Positions 27,129 through 35,213 of a DNA stretch of 64,000 nucleotides are shown one piece after another. The stretch's first letter is position 1; every line of letters begins with the position of its first letter. The stretch spans positions 62,001 to 126,000 of the forward strand of contig NZ_JAHVIA010000005.1 of the NCBI RefSeq assembly GCF_019801965.1, written 5' to 3'. The stretch comes from Salipiger bermudensis (GTDB lineage Bacteria > Pseudomonadota > Alphaproteobacteria > Rhodobacterales > Rhodobacteraceae). Position numbers and translations under genes: made by a program. Under the pieces are notes generated by a model. It saw only the letters and a list, made by a program, of their open reading frames with translations, made no database searches and had not been told where the DNA came from.

Positions 27129-27530
27129 TCACACCATCGGTATTTCGTTCTCGGCGCAGGCTGATGCGACGACTTCGGCATCGATCGTCTTCAGCCCCGC
27201 GGGCAACGCCGCCGAGATCGTGTAAACAGCATCTCCGCGCCAGAGGCCACCCTCTTGCGCGACATTCGTGCGCAGATGCCGCGCAAATCCGTAGCCGCGG
27301 ATCAGCGCATACTGCGCCGCAGCGCAACGGGCGTAATCCTCGACATCCGCCGCATCGCGGGCGCCGCGCATCTGCACGAAGAAATTCACCAGATCGCCAT
27401 CCAGCAGCCGCGTCTCAACCCCCTCGTAGACCGGCACGAACGGCGCGTCGGGCTCCGGCGCCGTCTCGGCGCAGGAGGCCAGCGCCGTCAGCGCGAGGCA
27501 GGAAAGGGAGAGGCGCGCCCGCATGGTCAT
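27129..27530 (-). CDS. Lipoprotein encoded between nuoG and nuoH
   Basis: A 133-residue protein with a signal peptide and lipobox ([11 protein letters not shown], Cys about residue 20), so it should be lipid-anchored in the envelope. The mature part has a conserved-looking [31 protein letters not shown] segment with a single further cysteine pair candidate. ATGA overlap with nuoG (27527-27530) couples it to the operon. No family recognised. A periplasmic lipoprotein coupled to a cytoplasmic complex I subunit is odd. Confidence 0.78.
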
Positions 27531-29527
27531 TCGGCGGCGAGCGGCTGGTCGCGGCGGGCCTTGGCGTTGGCCGAGAGCTCGGCCATCAGCACGCTCGACC
27601 GCGCGATCGGGTTGGTCAGGTAGAAATCCTTGACCGCGTAGCGGAACGACGCGTCGCCCAGTGAGCCCGGCTCGGTGCTGGCCCAGGTGTTGCCCGGAAC
27701 CTCGTCGATCTGCGCCAGGTGCGGCACCTCGGCCACCAGCTTCTGACGCAGCTGCGGCAGGCTGTCCCACGGCAGCGTCGCGCCGAGCTCGGCGGAGAGC
27801 GCGCGCAGGATCGCCCAGTTCTCCTTGGCCTCGCCCGGCGGGAAGCACGCGCGCATGGCGAGCTGCGGGCGGCCCTCGGTATTGACGAAGAGCCCGTGCT
27901 CCTCGGTATAGGCCGCGCCCGGCAGGATCACGTCGGCGCGGTGCGCGCCGCGGTCACCGTGGCTGCCCTGGTAGATCACCAGCGGGCCCTCGGCGATCTC
28001 GACCTCGTCGGCGCCGAGGTTCCAGATCACGTCGGCGCCGTCGATCGCCGCCTCCATGCCGCCCTCGGTCACCGCGTTCACGTCGAGCGCGCCGACGCGG
28101 GCCGCGGCGGTGTGCAACACCATGAACTTGGCAGAGGCCGCCTCGGCCAGCTTCATCGCGGTCGAGAGCACCGCGGCGCCATCGGCCTCCTGCAGCGCAC
28201 CCTGCCCGACGATGACCACCGCGCCCTCGCCCGCCTCGGCGGCGGAGAGCGCCGCGCGGTCGGCGCCGAGATGCTCGTAGTCATAGGTCAGGTCCACCGC
28301 CTCGCCGATCAGCTTCACGGTGGCGCCGTGCAGCCAGGCCTTGCGGATGCGCGCATTGAGCACCGGCGCTTCCTGCGCCGGGTTGGCGCCGACGAGGATG
28401 ACCTCGCGCGCATGATCCAGATCCTCGATCAGCGCGTTGCCGACATAGGCCGAGCGGTTGCCAGCGGGCAGCTTGGCGCCATCGGTGCGACACTCGACCG
28501 AGCCGCCCTGCCCCTCGATCAGGGTCTTGAGCGAGAACGCCGCCTCCACCGAGGCCAGATCGCCGACGAGGCCCACCGGCTTCTTGGCAGCCTTCAGCGC
28601 CTCGGCGACCTTGCCGAGCGCCTCGGGCCAGCTGGCCGGGCGCAACTTGCCGTTGTCGCGGATATAGGGCTTGTCGAGGCGCTGGCGGCGCAGGCCGTCC
28701 CAGACGAAGCGGGTCTTGTCGGAAATCCACTCCTCGTTCACGCCGTCATGGTTGCGCGGCAGGAAGCGCATCACTTCGCGGCCCTTTGTGTCGACCCGGA
28801 TGTTGGAGCCGAGCGCATCCATCACGTCGATGCTCTCGGTCTTGGTCAGCTCCCAGGGGCGGGCGGTGAAGGCGTAGGGCTTGGAGACCAGCGCGCCCAC
28901 CGGGCAAAGGTCGATGATGTTGCCCTGCAGGTTCGAGTCGAGCGTCTGGTTGAGGTAGCTGGTGATCTCGGCATCCTCGCCGCGCCCGGTCTGGCCCATC
29001 TGAGCGATGCCCGCCACCTCGGTGGTGAAGCGCACGCAGCGCGTGCAGGAGATGCAGCGGGTCATGTGGGTCTCGACCAGCGGGCCGAGATCGAGGTCGT
29101 CGACGGCGCGCTTGGGCTCGCGGAAGCGCGAGAAATCGACACCATAGGCCATCGCCTGGTCCTGCAGATCGCATTCGCCGCCTTGGTCGCAGATCGGGCA
29201 ATCGAGCGGGTGGTTGATGAGCAGGAACTCCATCACCCCCTCGCGCGCCTTCTTAACCATCGGCGAGTTGGTCTTGACCACCGGCGGCTGGCCCTCGGGC
29301 CCGGGGCGCAGATCGCGCACCTGCATGGCGCAGGAGGCCGCGGGCTTGGGCGGACCGCCCACCACCTCGACAAGACACATGCGGCAATTGCCGGCGATCG
29401 ACAGGCGCTCGTGGTAGCAGAAGCGCGGGATCTCGATCCCGGCCTGCTCGCAGGCCTGGATCAGCGTCATGGCCGGATCGACCTCCAGCTCTTTCCCGTC
29501 GATGATGATCTTGCGCAGGTCACTCAT
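27527..29527 (-). CDS. nuoG: NADH-quinone oxidoreductase subunit G
   Basis: A 666-residue iron-sulfur subunit of the peripheral arm. The N-terminal [2Fe-2S] site ([20 protein letters not shown], about residues 34-53), the [15 protein letters not shown] stretch and the [4Fe-4S] ligands in [15 protein letters not shown] are present, followed by a degenerate molybdopterin-oxidoreductase fold. The ATG at 29527 is preferred over that at 29533 because GGGAAG is then six bases away. Confidence 0.96.
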
Positions 29528-29623
29528 TGGCATCTTCCCAGACAGAATTTTGGCTCGGCACGGCGCAAAGGCCGCCCGCGGCGCCAGCGAGGCGCATCGT
29601 GGCGTTCTCTGCGCCGCGCCGCA

Positions 29624-30037
29624 TCACCGGGCCCTCAGGAGCGCGCCGATCTGCGAGCCCCTGCTGATTTCTTCGCGGCCGACGCGGCAATAGCCGGCTT
29701 CCTGGCCCAGCGTCACGCCGCGGGCCTCGAGCCATGCCTCGCCCTCGGCGCGCATCTTCTTCTTCTCTTGTTTCGAGGTGACGTAATCCTCGATCTCGTC
29801 TTCGCTATAGCCCAGCGAGCGGGCGCGCGACTTGAGCTTCGCGAGATAGGCGTAGGCGGTGATCATGCGGGCGTCGATGCTGCCGCAGGTGTTGCGGATC
29901 TCGTCGGCGATGCCCACCGCCAGCAGGCCGTCATGGATCTCCTTGACCTGGCCCAGCGGCGCCTTCGCGGTGGCGGCGGCGGGCAGGCTCGCGAGCGCTG
30001 TCGCGCAGGCCAGGAGAAGCGTCTTGATGATGCGCAT
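29624..30037 (-). CDS. DUF5333 protein (secreted), nuo operon
   Basis: A 137-residue protein with a signal peptide (MRIIKTLLLACATALASLPA, cleavage about AAATA-K). The mature part fits DUF5333, a family I know from Rhodobacteraceae. It ends YCRVGREEISRGSQIGALL. A GGAGG site lies 6 nt before the ATG at 30037, fixing the start. It lies between the lipoprotein gene at 30166 and nuoG. A related C-terminal pattern is found in the lipoprotein encoded at 30528-30968, so they are probably paralogues. Function unknown. Confidence 0.85.
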   Translation of the reverse strand: MRIIKTLLLACATALASLPAAATAKAPLGQVKEIHDGLLAVGIADEIRNTCGSIDARMITAYAYLAKLKSRARSLGYSEDEIEDYVTSKQEKKKMRAEGEAWLEARGVTLGQEAGYCRVGREEISRGSQIGALLRAR

Positions 30038-30165
30038 GTCAGTCCTCCGATGCGGGGTTGCGGAGCGCGCGCGCGAGCGCACGCCTCCATCTCCCGACAT
30101 GGGGGCCGCATGTTCCGTTATGCAATAACATGCGCGGCAAGCCGCTGATATGACGGCGAAACCTC

Positions 30166-30519
30166 TCACTCCGCGCAGCGCCCCCGGAAGGTGACCTTGT
30201 TGTCGCTCAGATCGAGCTGCTGGCGCGGCGTCTCGGGACCGACCTGCCAGTCGATATCGGAGGTGCCGAGATACTCGATGCAGTACTTAATGCCCTCGTA
30301 TTCCGCGCCGCCGACGGCACCATCGAGCGAGGCGCTGGCGGGGCCAGCGGTCGCGACGAAGCTGGCGCGGTCGCCCTTCACCGGCTTGGCCTTGCCCGAG
30401 AAGGTGACGCCGCCGTAGTTATAATCGTTCTTGATGCTGCCGCATCCCGCAACCGCAACCGCAGTCAGCGCCAGCGCCGCCCAGGTTCCGATGCCGTTTC
30501 GCTTGCTCACCTTGCCCAT
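30166..30519 (-). CDS. Small lipoprotein, nuo operon
   Basis: A 117-residue lipoprotein: basic start, hydrophobic core ALALTAVAVAGCGS gives the lipobox (Cys about residue 25). The mature part is hydrophilic with three further cysteines (IKYCIEYLG, then RGRCAE). AAGGA lies 4 nt before the ATG at 30519, overlapping the stop region of the previous gene; a TTG at 30531 would add four residues. No family recognised. Part of the run of envelope genes between nuoF and nuoG. Confidence 0.75.
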   Translation of the reverse strand: MGKVSKRNGIGTWAALALTAVAVAGCGSIKNDYNYGGVTFSGKAKPVKGDRASFVATAGPASASLDGAVGGAEYEGIKYCIEYLGTSDIDWQVGPETPRQQLDLSDNKVTFRGRCAE

Positions 30520-30527
30520 CCCGTCCT

Positions 30528-30968
30528 TCAAAGTCTCGTCAGCACCCGGCCCACATCGGAGCCTTCGGCGATCTCCGCCTCGCCCACCGGGCAGAGCGAC
30601 TGCGGCGCCTCGACGGAGCCGCCGCGCGACGCGAGGTAGCCCTCGACCGCCGCGGTGGTGCCGTTGAAATCATGCGATGCGAACACCGCGTCGAGCGCCG
30701 CGCGATCCTCGCCCGCCGCGACCATCTCCTCGGTGGCGCGGTGCACCGCGCCGCCATAGGGCGACGGCGCCATGGTGATCCCCTGCCCGTAGCAGGCATC
30801 GGCGATGCGCTCGGCCACCAGCAGCGTCACCACGCGGCGCTCCCAGCGATCCTCGAGCGCGCCGCCCGAGGGCAGCGCCGCGCCGCTCGACATGGTGGTG
30901 CCGGCGGCACAGCCCGCGAGCAGCAGCGCCGAAACCGGCACGAGGAGATATGAGGCCCGCCGCGACAT
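30528..30968 (-). CDS. DUF5333-like lipoprotein, nuo operon
   Basis: A 146-residue lipoprotein with lipobox LLLAGCAAG (Cys about residue 20). Its last 25 residues (SLCPVGEAEIAEGSDVGRVL) match the end of the DUF5333 protein at 29624 (YCRVGREEISRGSQIGALL) in C-x-V-G-x-x-E-I and G-S, and both have a C in the first helix, so a duplication is likely. The ATG at 30968 has GGAG upstream; a GTG at 30974 overlaps the nuoF stop. Function unknown. Confidence 0.78.
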   Translation of the reverse strand: MSRRASYLLVPVSALLLAGCAAGTTMSSGAALPSGGALEDRWERRVVTLLVAERIADACYGQGITMAPSPYGGAVHRATEEMVAAGEDRAALDAVFASHDFNGTTAAVEGYLASRGGSVEAPQSLCPVGEAEIAEGSDVGRVLTRL

Positions 30969-30970
30969 GC

Positions 30971-32266
30971 TCACTCCGCCGCCATCGCGCCCATGCGGCC
31001 GGTCTTCTTGGCCTTGATGCGATCCTCGATCTCCTCTCGGAAATGCCGGATCAGGCCCTGGATCGGCCAGGCCGCCGCGTCACCCAGGGCGCAGATGGTG
31101 TGGCCCTCGACCTGCTTGGTCACGTCGAGTAGCATGTCGATCTCCTCGACCTCCGCCTCGCCGCGCACCAGCCGGTCCATCACGCGCATCATCCAGCCGG
31201 TGCCCTCGCGGCACGGGGTGCACTGGCCGCAGCTCTCGTGCTTGAAAAATTTCGACAGCCGCCAGACCGCCTTCACCACGTCGGTGTTCTGGTCCATCAC
31301 GATCATGCAGCCGGTGCCGAAGCTCGACTTGTTCTCGCGCATCCAGTCGAAATCGAAGATCGCGTCCTCGAGCTTGTCCTTGGGCAGGATCGGACAGGAG
31401 GCGCCGCCGGGGATGATGGCCTTGAGATTGTCCCAGCCGCCTCGGATGCCGCCGCCGTGCTTTTCGATGATCTCGCGCACCGAGAGCGACATCTCCTCCT
31501 CGAAGACGCAGGGCGTGTTGACGTGGCCGGTGAGGCCCATGAGCTTGGTGCCCGAGTTGTTCTTGCGGCCGAAGCCCGAGAACCAGCTCGCACCGCGGCG
31601 CAGGATGGTCGGCACCACGGCGATGGACTCGACGTTGTTCACGGTGGTCGGGCAGCCGTAGAGGCCCGCGCCCGCCGGGAACGGCGGCTTCATCCGCGGC
31701 ATGCCCTTCTTGCCCTCGAGGCTCTCCAGCAGCGAGGTCTCCTCGCCGCAGATATAGGCGCCGGCGCCGTGATGCAGGTAGAGGTCGAAATCCCAGCCGG
31801 TGCCGCAGGCGTTCTTGCCGATCATGCCGGCGTCATAGGCCTCGTCGATGGCCGCCTGCAGCGCCTCGCGCTCGCGGATGTATTCGCCGCGGATGTAGAT
31901 GTAGGAGGTGTGCGCCCCCATGGCGAAACTGGCGATCAGCGCGCCCTCGATCAGCGTGTGCGGATCGTGGCGCATGATCTCGCGGTCCTTGCAGGTCGCG
32001 GGCTCGGACTCGTCGGCGTTGATCACCAGGTAGGCCGGGCGACCATCGCTCTCCTTAGGCATGAAGGACCACTTCAGGCCGGTCGGGAAACCCGCCCCGC
32101 CGCGGCCGCGCAGGCCGGAGGCCTTCATCTCATCGATGATCCAGTCGCGGCCCTTGCCGATGATCCCGGCGGTCCCGTCCCAGTGGCCACGCTTCTTCGC
32201 ACCCTGCAGCGTGCGATCATGCATGCCGTAGAGATTGGTGAAAATGCGGTCCTCGTCCTTCAGCAT
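30971..32266 (-). CDS. nuoF: NADH-quinone oxidoreductase subunit F
   Basis: A 431-residue NADH/FMN subunit where electrons enter complex I. Seen: the glycine-rich [16 protein letters not shown] (about residues 60-76), [19 protein letters not shown], and the N3 cluster ligands [12 protein letters not shown] with [13 protein letters not shown]. Normal length. It starts 4 bp after the DUF5337 gene. Confidence 0.97.
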
Positions 32267-32270
32267 CGCA

Positions 32271-32489
32271 TCAGTCCTTGTTCTGCTGGCGCGCGCGCCA
32301 GAGCCCGTAAATCATCCAGATCGCCGTCCCGAACCCGGCGATCGCCGCCAGGTCGAAGAAGGCGCGTGTGCGCTGGGACCATCCCAGCGCCTCGCCGGCC
32401 AGCATGGCGGCGATCCAGGCCAGCCCGGTGCCGGCGATCACGAGCGCGATGATGCGCCCTTGCCGGTTGTGGCGGTCCCGGTCGGTCAT
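32271..32489 (-). CDS. DUF5337 membrane protein, nuo operon
   Basis: A 72-residue protein with two hydrophobic helices ([20 protein letters not shown] and [20 protein letters not shown]) joined by a short loop, and charged ends; it fits DUF5337, which I know from Rhodobacteraceae. A purine-rich AAGGAAAGG lies upstream. It sits 4 bp before nuoF. Two-helix topology and position suggest an accessory membrane protein of complex I; unproven. Confidence 0.82.
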
Positions 32490-32604: not shown

Positions 32605-33393
32605 TCAGTAGACCTCGCCCTTGTCGACGCGGGTCGAGAACGCGGTCTCGCCCCCGGCGGCAAGAATCTTCGCCTGGCCGATCCAGTCATCGCGCGACAC
32701 GCGGCCGCGGAAGCCCTTGAGATTGGCGTCCATCCACGCCACCTCAGCGGCGCTCCAGCTGGCGATCTGGTCGAAATGGTAGATCCCCAGATCGTGCAGC
32801 AGCGACTCGAGCTTGGGACCGACGCCCTTGATCTCCTTCAGGTCATCGGCGCCGCTGTCGCGCGGTGCCGAGAGGGCCTCCGGCTGGCTGCCCTCGCCTT
32901 CCGGCGCAGGGGCGGCCCCAGTCTCAGCCCCGGTCTCGGCCTCGCCTTCGTATTTCCATGCGCCCTTGCGCGAGGCCAGTTCGGCCTGGCCGGCAAGCGG
33001 CTTGCTCGGCTTGATCAGCGGCTCTTCGGACGCCTCAGAGGACGCGGACGTGGCGGCGGTCTCCTCGGACGCTGGCGCATCCTCCTCGACCTTGGCCGGA
33101 GCGGGCGCGGCGGCCCGCGCGGGCGAAGGCGCCGGGGCCTCGGCCTTGGATTGCTTCGGCTCGGCGGCCGGCGCGGGCGCGCCGCTCTTGCGGGCGCCGA
33201 GCTTCGGCACCGGGGCACAGGTCAGCCAGACGAACAGGCTCCCCAGCAGCGCCGCCGCCAGGATGCCGAGCAGGATCGCCGCGACGATCCCCTTGTGAGC
33301 GCCGAGCGCAAACAGCGCCACCAGCAGCCCGATCACGGAAGCCGCAATCCAGCAGTTGCGCTTGCAGGTTCCGTTCGTTGCCATGTCCGTCAT
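32605..33393 (-). CDS. Membrane-anchored HhH-domain protein, paralogous to the NuoE C-terminus
   Basis: A 262-residue protein. Two membrane segments lie near the N-terminus (about residues 14-55, WIAASVIGLLVALFALGA then AAILLGILAAALLGSLF). Next comes an Ala/Pro/Glu/Ser-rich linker (about 70-170), and last an 88-residue domain (172-262) with [20 protein letters not shown], a helix-hairpin-helix (DUF4332-like) fold. The last domain is 72 percent identical (65 of 90) to the C-terminal extension of NuoE from the adjacent gene. GGAGG precedes the ATG at 33393. It probably interacts with, or was copied from, NuoE; function unknown. Confidence 0.85.
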   Translation of the reverse strand: MTDMATNGTCKRNCWIAASVIGLLVALFALGAHKGIVAAILLGILAAALLGSLFVWLTCAPVPKLGARKSGAPAPAAEPKQSKAEAPAPSPARAAAPAPAKVEEDAPASEETAATSASSEASEEPLIKPSKPLAGQAELASRKGAWKYEGEAETGAETGAAPAPEGEGSQPEALSAPRDSGADDLKEIKGVGPKLESLLHDLGIYHFDQIASWSAAEVAWMDANLKGFRGRVSRDDWIGQAKILAAGGETAFSTRVDKGEVY

Positions 33394-33428
33394 TCCAGTC
33401 CTCCCCTAAAAGGTCGTGTGGGTCCGCG

Positions 33429-34577
33429 TCAGTCTTCGCTGACGTCCCCCTTCTTAGCACGACCGGAGAATTCCGTCTCTCCACCGGAGGATAGGACTTT
33501 CGCCTGATCCACCCAGCCATCCCGGGTGACCCGGCCCTTGAAGCCCTGCAGGTTCGCGTCGACCCAGGCGACCTCATCCTCGGACCAGTTGGCGATCTGG
33601 TCGAAATGGTAGAAGCCGAGGCTGTGGCACAGCGCCTCGAGCTTCGGCCCGACGCCCTTGATCAGCTTGAGATCGTCGGCGCCACCGTCGCGCGGGGCCT
33701 CGAGCGCCTCGGGGCGGGTGCCGACATCGGCCTCCTCGACCGGGCTTTCGACCTTGGCGGCCGACTCGACCGGCGCTTCGCGCTTGTCCACGCCAGTGTC
33801 ATCGGCCGGAACGCCCTCGGCCAGCTTCGGCGCGTGGGTGTCGGGCTCGGCATCGCCCTTCTCGTCCGAGCGGTCGCGCCACGGGGTGCGCAGCGGCACC
33901 TCGGTGCCGTCGATGCGCTTGACCGTGTCGCCGATCGTGGTGGCGAGCTCGACAGAGGCGTTGTACTCCGCGCGGCCCTCGACGTGCTCGGTCAGAACCA
34001 CCGGCCCGCCCTTGGGCTCGGAAGCATAGCGGCCATTCTGCGGACCCGGCACCGGCACCTTGCCCGCGGCGAGCTCATCGAGGATCTCGGCCAGGCGCTC
34101 GGCGGTGAGATCTTCGTAATAGTCCTTGCCGATCTGGGCCATCGGCGCGTTGGCGCAGGAGCCCAGGCACTCGACCTCTTCCCAGGAGAACTTGCCGTCG
34201 GCGGAGACCTCATGCGGCTTGGGGGCGATCTTGTCCTTGCAGACGCCGATCAGGTCCTCGGCGCCGCAGATCATGCAGGTGGTGGTGCCGCAGATCTGGA
34301 TATGCGCAATGGAGCCAACCGGTTGCAGCTGGAACATGAAGTAGAAGGTCGCGACCTCGAGCACCCGGATATAGGCCATGTCGAGCATCTCGGCCACGGC
34401 CTCGATCGCCGGACGGGTCAGCCAGCCCTCCTGCTCCTGCGCCCGCCACAGCAGCGGGATCACGGCGCTGGCCTGGCGACCGGCGGGATACTTGCTGATC
34501 TGCCCCTCGGCCCAGGCCATGTTGGCTTGGGTGAAGGCGAAACTCTCTGGCTGGTCTGGATGAAGACGGCGAAGCAT
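33429..34577 (-). CDS. nuoE: NADH-quinone oxidoreductase subunit E with C-terminal HhH extension
   Basis: A 382-residue protein. The first 190 residues are a normal NuoE thioredoxin-like [2Fe-2S] subunit (N1a): ligands lie in [17 protein letters not shown] and [16 protein letters not shown]. After a long acidic linker, residues 290-382 add an HhH domain ([20 protein letters not shown]) shared with the membrane protein encoded next. E. coli NuoE has about 166 residues and Paracoccus Nqo2 about 239. A long NuoE is known from Rhodobacter capsulatus, so the fusion is a family trait. Confidence 0.93.
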
Positions 34578-34587
34578 CGGGCAGTTC

Positions 34588-34896
34588 CTATTGGGTCAGC
34601 ACGCAGACGAGCGGGATGTTCGGGACGGTGCGGTCGGGGGACTCCCCCGCCAGTTCCTTGAGCAGCACGGTCTGACGCTGGTTCTGAGTTTCGATGTTGT
34701 CGGCGATGAAACACAGGTACATCTCCGTGTCCTTCATCATGCCGAAGCTCGCATTCCCGGCCGGCGAGGTGGCGAAGGGCGCGAACCCCTCCGCCGCCAG
34801 CTCGGAGACGAAGGCATAGCGGCTTTCCCCCACCTCGATCGCCGCGGCCAGACCCGGCGCGCAGGCAAGCGCTGCAATGAGGGAAACCACACGCAT
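34588..34896 (-). CDS. Small secreted protein, nuo operon
   Basis: A 102-residue protein with a signal peptide ([19 protein letters not shown], likely cut after AAA) and a mature part of about 83 residues with two cysteines (MYLCFIADN and PLVCVLTQ) that may form a disulfide. No family recognised. Its ATG at 34896 shares a base with the stop of the upstream lipoprotein gene (TGATG), and it precedes nuoE by 10 bp, so it is an integral member of the operon. Confidence 0.75.
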
Positions 34897-35213
34897 CAGG
34901 CGGCCGCCTCCGGCGCGGGGGCGTCGACGCTCGGCGTGCAGGCGCCGGTGGTCAGGCGGAAGCCGCCGGCCTCGCTGGCCACGCCGGCGCCGGCCGCGAC
35001 GCGGTAATTGGCGACCTGCTGGATCTGCTCGCGGGTCAGGCCCGTCTGCAGCTCGACCGGCAGGTAATCAGATTCGTAATCGAGCGTGCAGCCGATCGAG
35101 GCGACGGCCTCGTCAAAGGCCCGCAGCTGCGCGTCGTCGATGCCCTGGGGCGGCAGCGCGAGGCAGCCGGCGGTGGCGATGAGCGGCAGCAGCAGCCAGC
35201 TTTTCTTCAGCAT
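34896..35213 (-). CDS. Small lipoprotein, nuo operon
   Basis: A 105-residue lipoprotein. The signal peptide ends in the lipobox ATAGC (Cys about residue 17), starting MLKKSWLLLPLIATAGCLAL. The mature part has the alternating pattern DDAQLRAFDEAVASIGCTLD and a Cys near the end. GAGGGAACGAG lies before the ATG at 35213. No family recognised. It couples to the secreted protein gene by a 1-base overlap. Located 102 bp after nuoD. Confidence 0.75.
   Translation of the reverse strand: MLKKSWLLLPLIATAGCLALPPQGIDDAQLRAFDEAVASIGCTLDYESDYLPVELQTGLTREQIQQVANYRVAAGAGVASEAGGFRLTTGACTPSVDAPAPEAAA

Follow-up and report, generated by a model that had tools for sequence, protein, structure and literature searches.

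The closest described systems in which the protein studied here has been seen are two photosynthetic complexes. In the reaction centre-light-harvesting 1 (RC-LH1) complex of D. shibae, chain O was named protein-O, and the published description (PMC12079452) has its residues 8 to 59 traced between RC-L and LH1, in a hairpin whose two ends are cytoplasmic, which contacts RC-L with its periplasmic end and carries a C10-C59 disulfide, the remainder of the chain being invisible. The same paper already notes a tail common to protein-O, NuoE and others and a gene position at nuoE-nuoF, and it calls the function of protein-O unknown and its origin unclear. The second complex is the LH1-RC of Rhodovulum sulfidophilum (9WQV), whose chain a was deposited as "NADH:ubiquinone oxidoreductase 41 kd complex I subunit" and on which our literature search found no paper. 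Here we analyse a stretch of 64,000 nucleotides from Salipiger bermudensis (assembly GCF_019801965.1, contig NZ_JAHVIA010000005.1, positions 62,001 to 126,000; the whole stretch is called the window below), in which the gene that follows nuoE encodes an orthologue of protein-O. What is added to the printed record is that protein-O is widespread and constrained where no reaction centre was found.

An orthologue of protein-O in the nuo operon of S. bermudensis

PDB sequence searches with the NuoE tail and with the whole second protein returned two strong matches, 8yy9_O and 9wqv_a, all remaining matches having E values of 0.0059 or worse. The match to D. shibae protein-O (ABV93056.1; 8YY9, 9LTS) is full length (E 3.7e-49) and includes the linker motif, the tail and the C terminus; the cysteines at positions 10 and 59 of the window protein correspond to the D. 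shibae disulfide positions, and the gene likewise sits between nuoE and nuoF. The hairpin predicted with AlphaFold2 superimposes on 8yy9_O, 9lts_A and 9wqv_a with root mean square deviations (rmsd) of 0.9, 1.0 and 1.2 Å, respectively. Foldseek gave probabilities of 0.99 to 1.00 and E values of 0.7 to 1.1 for this hairpin; for 8yy9_O the probability was 1.00 over 46 columns with an E value of 0.85, which is weak because the hairpin is short. Chain a of 9WQV shares hairpin and tail with the window protein (E 7.2e-34), whereas its sequence stops directly after the tail core (Foldseek gives a length of 110 residues). An earlier note on this DNA, made from the letters alone, had described the second protein as two membrane helices and a long linker followed by a domain shared with NuoE, and the predicted structure bears this layout out (two-helix hairpin, disordered linker, shared helix-hairpin-helix [HhH]-like tail); it had missed that this protein is already known from other species as a subunit of the reaction centre.

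Both structurally described proteins come from reaction-centre complexes, in contrast to the window protein: a PF00124 profile search of the window's genome (given as 99.97% complete) yielded no match, nor did searches of two genomes of the same genus in our sample. A place of the window protein in RC-LH1 is therefore excluded, unless genes were missed.

We favour the reading that protein-O is a membrane protein of the nuo operon that is additionally used by RC-LH1 in phototrophs, and that the tails of NuoE and protein-O both bind one common, putative partner; we give this a probability of roughly 0.5. In the window's genome, protein-O probably has a non-photosynthetic job, perhaps in respiration. 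On this view, the protein has a membrane hairpin with both ends cytoplasmic, and an extended, flexible linker connects the hairpin to an HhH-like tail that would serve for docking. In relatives that are phototrophic, the hairpin occupies the space between reaction centre and LH1; since no reaction-centre gene was found in the window's genome, it must sit elsewhere there, and the retention of the gene between nuoE and nuoF makes a site beside complex I, or beside intermediates of its assembly, the most likely. Both tails could then act as mobile hooks for the common partner, be it nucleic acid or a factor for assembly or scaffolding, and this partner would bring the NADH module and the membrane site together. 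For a protein published as a new reaction-centre subunit, non-phototrophs such as Salipiger would thus be a good place to study the other function, its other partner is to be sought at complex I, and the tail copy on NuoE offers a direct handle on whether respiration and photosynthesis might be physically linked. We consider it doubtful that protein-O is a shared membrane adaptor of quinone-reducing complexes, in which protein-O in RC-LH1 and both tails on one scaffold would hold complex I beside the reaction centre in a combined photosynthetic-respiratory assembly, the adaptor staying with complex I after the loss of photosynthesis.

The NuoE of the window belongs to the long form NF009040 (PRK12373; 584.9 bits against a cut-off of 514), its residues 1 to 378 aligning to positions 1 to 399 of 400, whereas NuoE of P. 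denitrificans (8QBY; 239 amino acids) lacks the tail and matches by residues 1 to 234 only. PMC11522691 describes the latter (NDUFV2) as 29 residues longer than the mammalian protein and partly overlaying NDUFV3, so that in the window the tail would be suspended from the outer region of the NADH module. PMC8115037 mentions additional proteins, assigned with varying confidence, in purified complex I. Our literature search, judged from listings, found nothing plainly on the NuoE extension in Rhodobacter.

Distribution and selection in the order

The survey covered 195 genomes of the order, 81 with a reaction centre and 114 non-phototrophs, and NuoE was found at E ≤ 1e-60 in all 195. We extracted nuoE regions from 160 genomes (81 phototrophs and 79 of the 114 non-phototrophs); one truncated locus (L176, whose contig ends within it) was dropped from the tree and the distribution counts and the window added, which gives 160 rows. 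The window's own genome is among the 35 non-phototrophs from which no region was taken, so that its row comes from the window sequence itself. In these Rhodobacteraceae, a tailed protein-O lies at nuoE-nuoF in 75/81 phototrophs and 44/79 non-phototrophs, and the NuoE tail is present in 76/81 and 69/79, respectively. Both tails occur in 109 of the 160 rows, the NuoE tail only in 36, protein-O only in 10 and neither in 5. Co-occurrence, the lack of which the earlier note had named as refuting its proposal, is thus common but not obligatory, and species missing one copy, for which that note had called, exist on both sides. Among the 41 rows without a tailed protein-O, 7 have a tailless hairpin-like gene (one of them weak: L243, E 0.7), and the tailless genes of G102 and G127 end just past the linker motif, so motif and tail are separable. 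A strict pattern for the motif was found in the protein-O linkers of 9/44 non-phototrophs and 18/75 phototrophs and in 3 of 160 NuoE reading frames.

These counts bear on the earlier note's idea that the pair tethers the NADH module to the membrane, taken here as an association of the two tails with one another. Neighbouring genes, near-identical tails that are both cytoplasmic (for protein-O according to the D. shibae structure) and the 109 rows with both tails speak for it, as do three loci (L179, L181 and L228) that have neither tail and yet keep a hairpin-like gene. The 36 and 10 rows with a single tail speak against it, the former showing that such a pair is not required, and there was no coupling of NuoE tail and protein-O in independent pairs. 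In 12 of the 36 genomes with the NuoE tail only, this tail is also the sole match to the P0002 query at E ≤ 0.001, which argues against tethering by tail-to-tail contact as the general function, although degenerate L21 tails or candidates left unscored (candidates were partly scored in some genomes) could have escaped this count. We regard binding of the tails to each other as unlikely.

Sequence comparisons indicate that both parts of protein-O are under purifying selection. We tried 13 pairs; one pair is nearly identical, and one relative genome occurs in two of them (as L188 and as L006). In the pairs with measurable divergence, the ratio of nonsynonymous to synonymous substitution rates (dN/dS) was 0.03 to 0.31 for the hairpin and 0.02 to 0.17 for the protein-O tail, ratios that are rough because some dS values are near saturation. 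For the window and its same-genus relative the values were 0.18 (hairpin) and 0.08 (tail), and between non-phototrophs the tail gave 0.03 to 0.14 in 8 distinct pairs with measurable divergence. Cysteines flank the hairpin on both sides in 34/44 non-phototrophs and 39/75 phototrophs (32/44 and 39/75 by another rule); the pair occurs in both groups and is therefore not tied to photosynthesis.

A glutamine at hairpin column 36, between the two helices, was present in 32/75 phototrophs, spanning 16 genera, and in 0/44 non-phototrophs; in independent pairs it always went with phototrophy (4.3 versus 0.0). A second, non-overlapping sample (L005 to L084 minus L075, 5 loci without a NuoE match and 9 overlapping the survey) had it in 5/18 phototrophs and 1/44 non-phototrophs (P = 0.006). 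The hairpin thus seems to respond to the reaction centre, with an added constraint in some of the lineages that have one, which is consistent with an added role. A loop motif W-x(2,3)-Q, tried as a phototroph signature, was not significant (28/75 versus 9/44; P = 0.07), and the single glutamine column alone held.

If protein-O were a dedicated RC-LH1 subunit, the copies in non-phototrophs would be relics of lost photosynthesis. Its presence in RC-LH1 structures of two species, its enrichment in phototrophs and the restriction of the loop glutamine to phototrophs in the survey would all fit, whereas the low dN/dS between non-phototrophs, the cysteine pair kept in most of them and the gene's place in the nuo operon would not. 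When kinship was taken into account by 14 independent pairs that differ in phototrophy (supported branches), protein-O differed the same way in 2.7, the opposite way in 1.0 and not at all in 10.3 (averages), and the association was not significant (median P = 0.625). A relic is improbable in our view: a gene that is placed in the nuo operon, is under selection and is found in 44 of the 79 rows of non-phototrophs is unlikely to serve photosynthesis alone.

Likeness of the two tails

The C-terminal duplication reported in the earlier note is real: in the window, NuoE and protein-O have tails that share 72% identity over 90 residues (61% over 123). Much of their constraint is shared, as in 20 tail columns a single residue reaches at least 95% among NuoE tails and among protein-O tails alike (gaps excluded, named loci pooled with survey loci; the two outermost of the 20 lie at ragged alignment ends). 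Over the 109 rows with both tails, mean identity was 65.7% between NuoE and protein-O tails within a genome and 62.5% between genomes, compared with 64.8% when NuoE tails are compared with each other and 63.6% for protein-O tails. A tree in which the NuoE tails form one clade was rejected (approximately unbiased test, P = 0.00096). On a tree built from 46 of these pairs, 15 label changes are needed (starred branches force 3 of them) versus about 31 in shuffles, none of 500 being as low, so the tail kinds are clustered but mixed; with 88 columns for 92 rows there is little data, and single branches are therefore not to be trusted. The other suggestion of the earlier note, that the two tails bind the same partner, agrees with the shared columns, the identities and the rejected clade.

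Two other sources of the likeness were considered. Recent duplication was rejected as the cause of the 72% identity, since dS between the two tails of the window is high (1.09), even though the tails stay alike, and is saturated in 4 of 14 genomes (chosen, the window apart, for high tail identity). Ongoing gene conversion as the main cause was only partly supported: the NuoE tail of a genome is closest or nearly closest to its own protein-O tail in 14 of the 109 rows, some such pairs are sisters in the tree, and NuoE-protein-O dS is 0.59 to 0.80 in 3 of the 14 genomes compared for dS.

Several points weigh against our favoured reading. For 87/109 NuoE tails and 96/109 protein-O tails, the closest other tail belongs to the same kind, so the two kinds are partly distinct, and such clustering means that they may not do exactly the same thing. 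When kinship is left aside, protein-O is commoner in phototrophs (Fisher P = 6e-8), and phototrophy may have been ancestral and slowly lost. The glutamine column was chosen after inspection of all columns, and with few independent pairs its test did not reach significance (median P = 0.125). L073 is the one exception in the second sample. The glutamine is no requirement, being absent from 43 of 75 phototrophs, and by eye 9wqv_a seems to lack it too. No result places protein-O on complex I, and the accessible parts of PMC11522691 and PMC8115037 name no such subunit of P. denitrificans complex I, although NuoE of this species is without the tail and protein-O was not searched for there.

Other carriers of the tail and layout of the locus

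Tails of the same C-terminal family are matched by NCBIfam profiles for L21 (NF008915 and NF008916), S2 (NF008966) and PhaH (NF045508), which are different host proteins, and all these matches lie below the whole-protein cut-offs, as expected. A tail match at E ≤ 0.001 was found in 9 of 106 genomes drawn from the class, the hosts, read from sequence, including NuoE, L21, S2 and membrane anchors with coiled-coil-like stretches. The nearest folds to the tail are in DNA-handling proteins, and Foldseek rows to trypanosome mitoribosome chains have an rmsd above 7 Å. The tail might bind nucleic acid or ribosomes and mark proteins to be held near the nucleoid or near membrane ribosomes; the G-x-G of the HhH-like hairpin, which is invariant, the nearest folds and the occurrence of related tails on further membrane anchors and on the ribosomal proteins L21 and S2 point in this direction, and we rate this alternative as rather unlikely. 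Were the tail a passenger domain, spread by duplication and lacking any definite function, this could explain why it occurs on several unrelated proteins and why each copy can be absent, but the low dN/dS of the protein-O tail and the 20 columns conserved in both kinds make this highly improbable.

Individual carriers were also recorded. The window genome's own L21 has a degenerate HhH-like tail (L261, 1054 to 1683, contig 10), and a membrane protein of a distant alphaproteobacterium carries two tandem tails (L250, 177 to 1697). A different membrane-anchored tailed protein is encoded outside the locus in G015, G019, G062 and G113, four genomes that lack protein-O there. Proteins with one helix, a coiled-coil-like stretch and a tail lie outside the nuo locus in genomes without protein-O there (L268, 886 to 1800; L269, 892 to 1794; L270, 1459 to 2124; reading-strand coordinates). 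In L009 (5832 to 6623), L024 (5941 to 6804), L049 (5693 to 6760) and others, the gene after protein-O encodes a third protein with the tail, for which no membrane helix is predicted; it is present in 14 of 80 named loci with both other tails and in 1 more without the NuoE tail, and in 7/81 phototroph and 0/79 non-phototroph loci. Its assignment as a phasin was rejected, because the PhaH profile matches mainly linker and tail and Pfam gave no phasin domain in the three proteins scanned.

Table 1. Features of the nuoE-nuoF region and its neighbours (window positions)
Feature	Position	Strand	Remarks
nuoE, long form, 382 aa	33429..34577	-	thioredoxin-like [2Fe-2S] core (residues 25-169), extension, tail
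HhH-like tail of NuoE, residues 290-382	33432..33710	-	
Protein-O orthologue, 262 aa	32605..33393	-	match to 8yy9_O, E 3.7e-49
Two-helix membrane hairpin of protein-O	33217..33387	-	model helices 3-30 and 36-59
Linker motif of protein-O, residues 126-149, KPS..L.G..EL..RKG.W.Y	32947..33018	-	short helix predicted
HhH-like tail of protein-O, residues 172-262	32608..32880	-	
DUF5337 gene, 72 aa, between protein-O and nuoF	32271..32489	-	small membrane protein by eye
nuoF	30971..32266	-	from sequence; as a query finds the downstream gene in relatives; no family-library scan
Two small proteins between nuoE and a nuoD-like gene	34588..34896 and 34896..35213	-	signal-like starts by eye; no Pfam match at E ≤ 0.01
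Two DUF5333 proteins between nuoF and a nuoG-like gene	29624..30067 and 30528..30974	-	E 1e-41 and 4e-8
Small protein between both DUF5333 proteins	30166..30531		no Pfam match
nuoG-like gene	27527..29533		

On the minus strand, the order is nuoE, protein-O, DUF5337 gene and nuoF (Table 1). The stop codon of nuoE and the start of the protein-O gene are separated by 35 bases that include, by eye, a ribosome-binding-like stretch, so the two genes are likely co-transcribed. A promoter scan found none, with 0.1 expected by chance, and is therefore little informative on co-transcription. The DUF5337 gene lies between nuoE and nuoF in 151 of the 160 survey rows and is more constant there than protein-O.
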